Positions 10,715-46,678 of a stretch of DNA of 54,162 bases are shown one piece after another. Made by a program: the position numbers and the translations under genes. The notes under the pieces are model-generated. The model ran no database searches and was not told the DNA's origin. It saw only the letters and a list, made by a program, of their open reading frames with translations. Positions within the stretch are counted from its first letter, which is position 1, and every line of letters starts with the position of its first letter. This DNA is from a virus, in the IMG/VR virus record IMGVR_UViG_3300044655_000258, positions 1-54,162 of that record, one strand, 5' to 3'.

Positions 10715-11101
10715 TTACGCTATCTTGAATGCTTCTTTCAACTGCGCTGTCGCAGCCTCTACAAGCTTGGGATGTCTGAACTTATAGATGTCAGGAATAT
10801 CTAACACATGATGTTCCATATTGTCGATCAATTCCTTGTGGTCGTAGCAGGCTACTCGGTAGTTGCCATCATCAACAAAGACAACAGCATCAGCCCATTG
10901 AAGCTGCACCTCATCCAACACAATCAAAGCGTATTCACTTGATGTTCCTACAGCACGAGTGTTGAAGTTGAACGGCTCGTTAGACAAGATCCAAGCCAGC
11001 GTAGGGCTACGCAACAACCCAGCTGAACAGACACACAACACTTTCTTGTTGCTGCCTTGGTTGGGGTTGCGCATGTTATGCAGGCGATTGAACGTTGTCA
11101 T
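10715..11101 (-). CDS. Low-molecular-weight tyrosine-phosphatase-like protein, 128 aa
   Basis: The P-loop CSAGLLRS fits the C-x5-R-S signature of cysteine phosphatases (Cys25, Arg31, Ser32) right after a beta strand (KKVLCV), as in low-molecular-weight PTPs and related ArsC-like folds. Candidate general acids are Asp101 and Asp104 (LDIPDIY). It is the last gene of the leftward operon and overlaps its upstream neighbour by 4 bp (ATGA). Known LMW-PTPs remove phosphate from phosphotyrosine; the substrate here is unknown. Slightly short for the family (usually 140-160 aa). Activity is likely but not proven by sequence. Confidence 0.65.
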   Translation of the reverse strand: MTTFNRLHNMRNPNQGSNKKVLCVCSAGLLRSPTLAWILSNEPFNFNTRAVGTSSEYALIVLDEVQLQWADAVVFVDDGNYRVACYDHKELIDNMEHHVLDIPDIYKFRHPKLVEAATAQLKEAFKIA

Positions 11102-11729: not shown

Positions 11730-11768
11730 GTCCTTTCAGTTGGTTGTGCCGACATTGGCGAAGAGATG

Positions 11769-12263
11769 TTACCACATGTCGGGCCACCAACGATTACCTT
11801 TTGATGTGTTGTCGCTTGCAGGCAACAGTTGTAGATTAGCTTCGCAATGCAGGCCGCATACTGAATCGCTCCGTAATGGAACAACATGGTCTACGTGTAG
11901 GTTGAGTCCTGTTCGGTTGAAAATAGTCGCAAGTTTATACATACCTCTGACCGCTTCTTTATCAACCCACGATGGTGTTGCTTTAAACTTTATCGCTTTT
12001 CGTTTTGCATTTTTAGCGTTGCTAATGTGTGGGTTGGCTTTTAGATAAGCGCTGTTTCGTTTAATGATAACGTCTTTGTTCGCGCTGTAATAGGCATTCT
12101 TTTGTTCGCACATAGTATCTTTGTTAGCTTGGTAATAATCGCTGTTTGTTTTTTTGCAGCATACCTTACACTCAGAGTTAACACCATGTTTACAACTTTT
12201 ATGTTTATAAAATTCAGCAACACCCTTCTCAACCCCGCATTTCGTACACACCTTTGTTAACAT
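11769..12263 (-). CDS. HNH homing endonuclease, 164 aa
   Basis: The ATG at 12263 has an AGGAAAAG ribosome site; in-frame sequence upstream is the structured RNA described below. The N terminus has a C4 zinc-ribbon (CTKC ... CKVC, Cys6, Cys9 and two more near residue 30). A Lys/Asn/Tyr-rich linker with YYQANKD/YYSANKD repeats follows, then the HNH core LHVDHVVPLRS ... HCEANLQLL ... N. The enzyme cuts DNA at a target site and usually spreads its own gene. It interrupts an otherwise contiguous operon, which fits a free-standing homing gene. Confidence 0.85.
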   Translation of the reverse strand: MLTKVCTKCGVEKGVAEFYKHKSCKHGVNSECKVCCKKTNSDYYQANKDTMCEQKNAYYSANKDVIIKRNSAYLKANPHISNAKNAKRKAIKFKATPSWVDKEAVRGMYKLATIFNRTGLNLHVDHVVPLRSDSVCGLHCEANLQLLPASDNTSKGNRWWPDMW

Positions 12264-12282
12264 AACTTTTCCTATAAACAAA

Positions 12283-12399
12283 AAAGCCTGAAGAAACCAC
12301 CGCCGACATGACTGGAACTCATGTCGTTGTACATCACTGTACATTGATGGCCTCTTCAGGCTTCACTGTAGCGTCAGATGGTTCCAGCAACCAACGCTA
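12283..12399 (-). ncRNA. Compact multi-helix RNA upstream of HNH gene
   Basis: On the minus strand an upstream hairpin (12369-12399; outer stem TAGCGT/ACGCTA, inner TGGTT/AACCA) is followed by an 11-bp closing stem (12284-12294 with 12353-12363). The closing stem encloses three helices: GATGGC pairing with ACCACC on the + strand reading, a 6-bp hairpin with a GTGA (GNRA) tetraloop at 12328-12343, and an 8-bp perfect hairpin at 12304-12326. The 7-nt loop at 12312-12318 is complementary to 12381-12387 in the first hairpin. A run of T follows at the 3' side. It may serve as a terminator, but the internal helices exceed that need. Confidence 0.6.
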
Positions 12400-12407
12400 T
12401 GGTGGAG

Positions 12408-12884
12408 TTATATCACAGCTTGCAGCTTATGAATAGGCAGATTGTAACAGCTACTCCGAACAACATACCCGTTGTCTGGATCGACTGTTCCTTTCGCCAT
12501 GAAAATGGCTTCCTTATAGTACCGTTCTTTAGAACATACACCAAGGAACCATCCTACACTGTAGTCGTTCTTTATCCTTGTGAACGCATAGTAGTCACAT
12601 TCTTGTGTGGTGTTTAGCTTAGCAACAGAACACATGTAGGTGTCTAAAGGTTTGACAGATGTCAGTTTTGTTTTGACATCTATGGTTGTACCATCCTTCA
12701 GCACCAAATCATATTCGTATGTGTTGGCTAACACACCACCCATGACCTGTTGAGCGATAGCTTCACCTATGAAGCCAGCAATGTTGCCAGCCCCACGGGT
12801 GATGCTGTTACGCAGCTTACCCATCTCTGCAGCTTTGTCTCTAGCAGTGACGAGCATTTCGCCAGTAACAACAACTTCAATCAC
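12408..12884 (-). CDS. PD-(D/E)XK nuclease-like protein, 158 aa
   Basis: It uses a GTG start overlapping the upstream stop (GTGA). The sequence has FIGEAIAQQV (candidate Glu), then YDLVLKDGTTIDVKTK. This matches the D-x(n)-(D/E)-x-K nuclease pattern with Asp and Lys in IDVKTK. Such folds occur in Holliday-junction resolvases, restriction enzymes and phage host-DNA nucleases. Length (~160 aa) suits a single minimal nuclease domain. It sits beside PhoH and the RNR genes, so recycling host DNA or processing replication intermediates are both possible. The exact role is inferred. Confidence 0.6.
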   Translation of the reverse strand: MIEVVVTGEMLVTARDKAAEMGKLRNSITRGAGNIAGFIGEAIAQQVMGGVLANTYEYDLVLKDGTTIDVKTKLTSVKPLDTYMCSVAKLNTTQECDYYAFTRIKNDYSVGWFLGVCSKERYYKEAIFMAKGTVDPDNGYVVRSSCYNLPIHKLQAVI

Positions 12885-27385: not shown

Positions 27386-28489
27386 TTAAAACATTGGTTG
27401 TAAGTCTCTCATGTCCTGAGCCACTGTCGCAGACTTGAGTGTGTGTCTGATGTACGGTGTCAGACTTGATGGTGTTGCATGACCAGTCAACGACATGATG
27501 TTAGTGGTTGCTACACCAGCCATCACCATCTCTGTCACTGCAGTGCGGCGCAGGTCCATAAGCTGTAGCTCATCAGGCAGTTGAGCGTCTTGCATTATAG
27601 CTCTGCCAGCCTTAGCCAGTCCTTGCAAACTATACGGCTGTAGTATGCCAGCAACAGTGCGTGTCGTAGGGAACACATACTTCTGCCAGCCAAGCTCGTC
27701 ACGTTGCTGCTTCAACATTTGTTGCAGGTCTTTAGGTAGCGGGATAGATACCCTTGCCCTGCGCTTGCTCTGTGTCAGCGACAACGTACCTGTCTCAACA
27801 TCATAGCTGTCCCATGTCAACAGACGCATGTCGCCCAAGCGCTGTGCTGCACAATAGGCTGTATAAATCAACAGTGCTAAGCTGCGTGTCTCAAACTTGC
27901 TGAACGCCACAGTCATGAAAGCTTTGATGTGTTCGCGCTCCCATGTCACACGCCTTGGCTTACTTGTTTGTTTCTTCACAGCAGTGAAGGGATTGAAGGT
28001 GGTGAAGCCATTGCGAATGGCATAGCTAAACAACAAACGATAGACAGCCAGCACATGACTAGCCAAGCTAATGCTATGTGCAGCATGCAGGTCATAGATG
28101 CGCTGCATAGATGGTGTTGTCAGGTCTTGCAGCCTGCTGGCATACAGTGTAGTGTGTGTTGCTTTGTCACCTGCCCAGCGCTTGAGGTAGTAGACATAGT
28201 CTTCCTTGCTCTTGCTTGACAGCTTGCTGTAGTCGATGGAGTTGATGTAGCTCTTGACCAGATCCAACACTGTGCTCTTGGTGGTGAGGTGTTTCAGGTA
28301 GCGATGTTCCTTGCGCCACTCATCAAGCACATCGTTCTGTTCGTTGCAATAGTTGATGGCATCGACAAGGTTGGTGCCCAATGCTTTGCGCTTGACGACA
28401 CCAGCTTCAACAGCATCAGATGGTGGTGCATACTTGTAAGAGACTACGCCGTTGCGGTCAACGTGTTGCATGTAACGTGCTAGTTTCAT
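27386..28489 (-). CDS. Tyrosine recombinase/integrase, 367 aa
   Basis: The ATG at 28489 overlaps the upstream mini-gene by ATGA. An N-terminal helical core-binding domain (SSKSKEDYVYYLKRWAGDKA) precedes the catalytic domain: Arg217 in AAQRLGDM, candidate Lys242, box II MDLRRTA (Arg314, with Met in place of the usual His), His337 in SLTGHATP and the nucleophile Tyr346 in TPYIRHT. It catalyses site-specific recombination. It is buried in the replication operon with no adjacent non-coding attP, so a prophage role is uncertain. Confidence 0.88.
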   Translation of the reverse strand: MKLARYMQHVDRNGVVSYKYAPPSDAVEAGVVKRKALGTNLVDAINYCNEQNDVLDEWRKEHRYLKHLTTKSTVLDLVKSYINSIDYSKLSSKSKEDYVYYLKRWAGDKATHTTLYASRLQDLTTPSMQRIYDLHAAHSISLASHVLAVYRLLFSYAIRNGFTTFNPFTAVKKQTSKPRRVTWEREHIKAFMTVAFSKFETRSLALLIYTAYCAAQRLGDMRLLTWDSYDVETGTLSLTQSKRRARVSIPLPKDLQQMLKQQRDELGWQKYVFPTTRTVAGILQPYSLQGLAKAGRAIMQDAQLPDELQLMDLRRTAVTEMVMAGVATTNIMSLTGHATPSSLTPYIRHTLKSATVAQDMRDLQPMF

Positions 28490-28614
28490 AGCTTTGCTTT
28501 CCCGGTAAGAACCCAAACAATCGGGAACATGAACAGTCTGACAAGCCGCCCAAGGACTGACGAGCCACCGCTTGTGTCAAAGTCAATCGTGTATTCTTTT
28601 TTGTCGGTCTTCAT
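28486..28614 (-). CDS. Very small membrane protein, 42 aa
   Basis: The product reads KTDKKEYTIDFDTSGGSSV and then a hydrophobic segment LVRLFMFPIVWVLTG. It starts in an ATGA overlap with the gene upstream and ends in ATGA with the integrase. Two coupled junctions and a clear membrane helix support it. Function unknown. Confidence 0.6.
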   Translation of the reverse strand: MKTDKKEYTIDFDTSGGSSVLGRLVRLFMFPIVWVLTGKAKL

Positions 28615-46648: not shown

Positions 46649-46678
46649 TTGACACGGGCTGAAAAAGTCTGGTATAAC
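46649..46678 (+). promoter_or_regulatory. Sigma70 promoter, TTGACA-N18-TATAAC
   Basis: A consensus -35 overlaps the scaffold stop region. The -10 TATAAC has an upstream TGG. It drives the HNH and major capsid genes. The expected start near 46685 coincides with the first base of the structured leader. Confidence 0.82.

Follow-up and report, generated by a model that had tools for sequence, protein, structure and literature searches.

A covarying, pseudoknotted RNA directly upstream of mobile HNH endonuclease genes in uncultured phages, with a proposed role as a terminator-like leader

Directly upstream of an HNH endonuclease gene in the viral record IMGVR_UViG_3300044655_000258 (54,162 nt, analysed over its whole length and hereafter called the window) lies a short region that can fold into an elaborate RNA, which raises the question of whether this RNA is real and what it does beside a predicted homing endonuclease. 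Folding of positions 12280-12399 yielded -58.1 kcal/mol on the minus strand (z -7.0, equalled by 0 of 200 shuffles) and -43.6 kcal/mol on the plus strand (z -5.35). Based on this difference and on the G-U pairs, the RNA was assigned to the minus strand and the plus-strand reading was rejected. The RNA spans minus 12399 to 12276, about 120 bases, and its 5' to 3' order is extended -10 box, P1, CAGTG linker, P2 5' strand, P3, P4, P2 3' strand, U-tract, Shine-Dalgarno and the HNH ATG at 12263 (Table 1), with the conserved CAGTG standing just before the 5' strand of P2, the stem that closes a three-way junction. The elements of a preliminary description, namely a compact fold of several helices, a GNRA loop, a 6-bp GUGA hairpin, an 8-bp hairpin with a 7-nt loop exactly complementary to a second loop, and a separate upstream hairpin (here P1), were all recovered, as was the proximity of the RNA end to the HNH start, the U-tract ending about 13-20 nt before the ATG. 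The closing stem is likewise present, but the 11 bp first attributed to it apply only to a plus-strand reading; on the minus strand it comprises 18-19 bp, counting G-U wobbles.

Table 1 Positions of the RNA elements and of the endonuclease cassette in the window.
Feature	Position	Strand	Evidence or remark
Whole cassette: promoter-like box, RNA/terminator, HNH gene and 3' tail	11746..12417	-	right border approximate
HNH endonuclease gene, 164 aa	11769..12263	-	PHROG 1035 'endonuclease VII', 1e-26
Shine-Dalgarno AGGAAA and AGTTA before ATG	12263..12273	-	sequence
U-tract TTTTTTGTTT ending P2, intrinsic-terminator-like tail	12276..12285	-	CTTTTTTG or CTTCTTTG in 18/18 members
Stem P2, 3' strand GGTGGTTTCTTCAGGCTT	12284..12301	-	fold and covariation
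Hairpin P4, 8 bp, 7-nt loop	12304..12326	-	7/7 scored pairs compensated, 99.2% paired
P4 loop, kissing strand 2, GTTCCAG (RNA GUUCCAG)	12312..12318	-	exact complement of 12381-12387
Hairpin P3, 6 bp, GNRA tetraloop GUGA at 12334-12337	12328..12343	-	tetraloop GNRA in every member
Stem P2, 5' strand AAGCCTGAAGAGGCCATC	12346..12363	-	changes on both sides in 13/18 pairs, 97.5% paired
Hairpin P1, 9 bp TAGCGTTGG/CTGACGCTA, two G-U	12369..12399	-	5/9 pairs compensated, 92.8% paired, n=18
P1 loop, kissing strand 1, CTGGAAC	12381..12387	-	perfect complement of P4 loop, 18/18 members
Extended -10 promoter-like element TGTGATATAAC (family consensus TRTGRTATAACT)	12407..12417	-	before nearly all 18 members

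Using the HNH protein, DNA patterns and a covariance model (R1) as queries, we gathered 18 distinct members, all in viral (phage) contigs, two copies being found at different sites in contigs G006 and G009. The preliminary description had let the case for an RNA hinge on compensatory base changes in related phages, and these are abundant: across the 18 members, aligned by model fitting (alignment A5), 30 of 45 pairs have changed on both sides, pairing holds in 96.7% of the cells of the structure, and a covariation score of 0.580 contrasts with 0.228 in shuffles. Sliding the partners by 1-3 columns in the same alignment cut pairing to 32-41%, a slide of one column alone giving 33-41%, and the initial 14 sequences gave 93.9% of cells paired with a covariation score of 0.463 (0.207 in shuffles). 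Architecture is similarly constant, with a P2 of 18 bp in 17 of 18 members and a P3 tetraloop that varies among GUGA, GAAA, GCAA and GUAA. The fold is far beyond chance, and these sequence comparisons argue with very high confidence that the RNA is real and one of a family. Weak model matches on the opposite strand (<=34 bits) correspond to the mirror of P2-P4, and the pattern matches L482, L483, L485, L486 and L488, which are without the fold, were rejected as members.

The possible kissing or pseudoknot contact noted from the window sequence gained particular weight from the family. This helix of 6-7 bp, joining the P1 loop to the P4 loop, is 98.4% paired over the 18 members, with both-side changes in 4 of 7 pairs, and occurs as nine distinct sequences (CTGGAAC, CTGACC, CTAGACC, CTGATAC, CTCGCAC, CTCATCC, CTCGTCC, CTCGACC and CTCGAAC), every one of which is perfectly matched. 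The two unpaired cells are accounted for by two members whose contact measures 6 nt and in which the gap was placed differently. Since the covariance model left out the kissing helix, the alignment was built independently of this helix, and column-wise covariation is the valid test of the pair; counting the longest complementary word is too blunt, as about 5% of shuffles reach 7. P4 length and kissing contact sum to 14-15 bp, as though the geometry were fixed.

The covariance searches proposed in the preliminary description thus led to 18 members through our own model and the accompanying searches, and to no Rfam family. Against Rfam release 15 (4227 families) at gathering score, only a tRNA was detected in the window, and at E-values up to 10 there were only chance matches. 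Seven other member loci had no Rfam match. A catalytic RNA, either a self-cleaving ribozyme or an intron remnant, would suit a compact pseudoknotted fold adjoining a homing-endonuclease gene; however, no ribozyme or intron family matched at gathering score or at E<=10, and the insertion is intergenic with intact neighbours, making this origin exceedingly improbable. A group I or II intron was rejected on the same two grounds, the absence of an Rfam intron match and the insertion between genes. The covariance model had no match in ten related phage contigs without the cassette, in the first 50 kb of the relative ctYwJ313, around HNH relatives encoded by three other phages, or in 369 bacterial genomes of one class, the last search being run without a positive control. 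Used as blastn queries against isolate phages, the window locus and two further members retrieved no copy. A bacterial or prophage source was rejected as well, a pattern scan of GTDB contigs giving only chance matches among the matches listed.

The RNA was consistently associated with an endonuclease gene. An HNH ORF stands directly downstream in 18 of 18 members, which extends to the whole family the link with the HNH gene first drawn from the window. In 17 of these the protein belongs to one family (PHROG 1035) and the remaining member (L122, 8232-8367 minus) is followed by an HNH_3 + AP2 protein, suggesting that the RNA goes with endonuclease expression and not with one protein. Since close HNH relatives at 52-63% identity (L383, L384, L386-L388 and L398) are without the RNA, it is not required by every such endonuclease. 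A guide RNA for the HNH protein was rejected because these close relatives lack the RNA while another HNH type has it. The HEARO, or omega RNA, of IscB is also a structured RNA beside an HNH gene, whereas the RNA reported here has no Rfam match, no RuvC/IscB protein and no guide segment. The window protein displays an N-terminal CxxC...CxxC, variable NKE-type repeats, whose number varies among the 17 proteins of the family, and the motifs HVDHVVPL...HCEANLQLL...N; its Pfam HNH match (0.018) is below the cut-off.

RNA and gene form a mobile cassette. In the window, it is located at the 3' end of a 158-aa gene, behind the stop codon and ahead of the next gene. A search with the 158-aa protein identified 80 viral loci. 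Where the downstream region of these loci could be read, the insertion was present in L003 and L004 only, and the others run straight on to the next gene. The cassette is thus present or absent at one site in close relatives, and it occurs at several sites.

Several further observations concern the cassette and its surroundings. At its 3' end (window 11746-11768), downstream of the HNH stop codon, the cassette carries a short GCCAATNTCGGC hairpin that is common to the cassettes of L003, L004, L039 and L085, that of L039 being at another site. The integrase gene of the window (27386-28516 minus; PHROG 1, 3e-38) has an empty 3' end, the position at which an RNA and HNH cassette is inserted in L122 4781-4916, L193 63-198 and L484 7716-7851. 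Two cassettes, at L122 8232-8367 minus and at L196 2567-2702 plus, have their upstream flank in common (ACATCAACAACACATCTAACATA...TGTTATGATATACC) and differ in kissing words and endonuclease families, so that RNA and ORF seem to be exchangeable modules. An ORF with VLCVCSAGLLRSP (window 10715-11101 minus) looks like a low-molecular-weight phosphatase active site; it had no Pfam match at 0.001.

Because a U-tract follows the outer stem, termination is probably part of the role of this RNA. A stable stem with an adjoining U-tract, as in intrinsic terminators, was found in 18 of 18 members, in most of them as 18 bp of P2 and then U6. The loop is not the short one (3-8 nt) of such terminators, as P2 closes a junction of about 45-50 nt, and a simple terminator scan does not list the P2 stem. 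Across members the gap from tail to ATG is only about 12-16 nt, too short to leave room for another promoter. The long stem and U6 of most members could also be those of a plain intrinsic terminator shielding the insertion site, with the extra helices as neutral decoration, yet P1, P4 and the kissing helix covary strongly and are unneeded by a terminator. This covariation largely refutes the plain-terminator reading, which we consider very improbable. The earlier expectation of something more than a simple terminator is accordingly borne out by the covarying P1, P4 and kissing helix, with the qualification that the stem does end in a terminator-like manner.

The 5' strand of P2 (12346-12363) is itself an inverted repeat, of AGCCU-N4-AGGCU type, in 18 of 18 members, and could therefore fold alone. 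The resulting local hairpin of 4-6 bp, rarer than 2% of shuffles in most members, is mutually exclusive with P2, and its predicted energy is -2 to -7 kcal/mol versus about -22 to -32 kcal/mol for P2; it is possibly a folding intermediate or an antiterminator. Three-way junctions with a kissing loop and a GNRA loop are a build like that of known sensors. Together with the self-complementary strand that excludes P2 in all 18 members, this would fit an attenuator that senses a ligand or protein, either riboswitch-like or by HNH autoregulation, and in which transcription would stop or continue depending on the kissing contact and on which of P2 and the local hairpin forms. I-TevI does repress itself, though at the DNA level (PMC2988022). 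Against such a sensor, the local hairpin is far weaker than P2, few unpaired bases are conserved besides the CAGUG linker, and one member precedes an unrelated HNH protein; we regard it as quite unlikely.

At the other end of the RNA, the extended -10 box, with predicted promoter activity, contains the TAA stop codon with which the upstream gene ends, and the same holds for several copies. At the two sites where empty and filled alleles were compared, namely the 158-aa gene and the 3' end of the integrase gene, homology to the empty allele ends immediately ahead of TRTGRTATAAC, indicating that the cassette begins, at its 5' end, with the promoter-like box. Further TATAACT-type -10 boxes lie in the window at 46670 plus, preceded by TTGACA 17 nt before it, 53655 plus and 16859 minus, and their sequences suggest that such boxes are host sigma-70 promoters for the phage. 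The box of the cassette overlaps one arm of a potential helix, P0, in which AGTTA of the start region can pair with TAACT at 12406-12410. When the segment with the -10 box and leader was paired with the segment from U-tract end to ATG, cognate partners gave -7.6 kcal/mol and swapped partners -6.0 kcal/mol (1 of 2000 permutations, kinship between members being ignored), and three control regions were flat. P0 is good in about 10 of the 18 members and weak in others (weak or missing in L084, L039, L004, L122a and L392). The predicted unpaired fraction of the ribosome-binding region was 0.38 in read-through transcripts and 0.55 in own-promoter transcripts (Wilcoxon 4e-5, again ignoring kinship), and the modelling suggests that P0 would cover the start region of transcripts that originate upstream.

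Given the conserved fold, U-tract, position and mobility observed for this cassette, we lean, at slightly better than even confidence, towards reading the RNA as a 5' leader that belongs to a mobile, free-standing HNH cassette, a pseudoknotted terminator or attenuator that limits expression of the predicted homing endonuclease. The mechanism, proposed with moderate confidence, would run as follows. Host RNA polymerase would start at the extended -10 element or arrive from the upstream gene, the RNA would fold and lock through the P1-P4 kissing contact, and most transcripts would end at the U-tract, leaving little endonuclease mRNA. Read-through transcripts from upstream would include the -10/leader segment, whose pairing with the start region (P0) would lower translation, while own-promoter transcripts would be without the P0 masking arm. 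Termination and masking would thereby hold the DNA-cutting enzyme low or late, limiting harm to the host phage, and the RNA probably keeps enzyme production low or well timed.

This leader account leaves partly unexplained something that the fold must do, since a plain terminator needs no kissing loop, GNRA loop or near-constant 18-bp P2. Tentatively, the kissing-locked RNA may sense a metabolite, the HNH protein or the infection state and switch between termination and read-through, or it may act as a small RNA in trans. Taken separately, a trans-acting small RNA of roughly 115-125 nt, running from the cassette promoter to the U-tract, would have the fold as its product and the HNH gene as its vehicle, and would act for the benefit of the element or of the phage, for instance through binding to a protein or RNA. 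Its own promoter-like box, compact tertiary-type fold and terminator at the end would suit it, as would helices that are all compatible together, like a finished RNA and not a switch, and the phages with two copies (G006 and G009). However, the RNA is never found alone and always directly 5' of an HNH gene, a Shine-Dalgarno follows right behind its tail, and no target or partner is known, so that we consider this alternative unlikely.

The leader reading is close to what has been described for other phage endonucleases. T4 I-TevI, SegB and Aeh1 MobE have regulatory hairpins over the Shine-Dalgarno that mask the start region in upstream transcripts, the own-promoter transcript being without the masking arm (PMC2988022). 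Here, too, an RNA structure stands directly upstream of a phage homing-endonuclease gene, and the same logic of masking and promoter placement is proposed, with a moderately supported masking helix P0; unlike those hairpins, a 120-nt pseudoknotted RNA and a U-tract lie between promoter-like box and gene. In T4 mobE and segF, simple intrinsic terminators located early in the coding region, at its 5' end, lower endonuclease transcripts, with about 30% termination at mobE (PMC2988022). The predicted terminator reported here would be alike in lowering such transcripts, whereas it is a terminator-like stem that closes a three-way junction in a 5' leader containing a kissing loop. Both layers, masking and termination, hence have precedent in T4-type phages (PMC2988022). 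Among Endo VII-type proteins, F-CphI is a phage homing endonuclease with homing activity that shares the endonuclease VII-annotated group with the window protein, and the part of its description consulted mentions no such leader RNA (PMC6083498). The window protein differs from F-CphI in having the HNH-like pattern HxDH..N..N and not DHDH (PMC6083498). In the open-access literature we found no homing endonuclease described with a kissing-loop terminator leader.

Judged from sequence, the RNA would represent a new family within the already known RNA-based control of phage homing endonucleases. What is known of such control comes mostly from simple hairpins and a small number of T4-type phages. 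To this the locus, from a freshwater phage, adds a new RNA fold whose kissing helix is supported by covariation and which travels with endonuclease genes in an uncultured podovirus group, one copy even standing before an unrelated HNH protein. The leader is a candidate new Rfam family and would offer a test case for a tertiary RNA contact acting on an intrinsic terminator.
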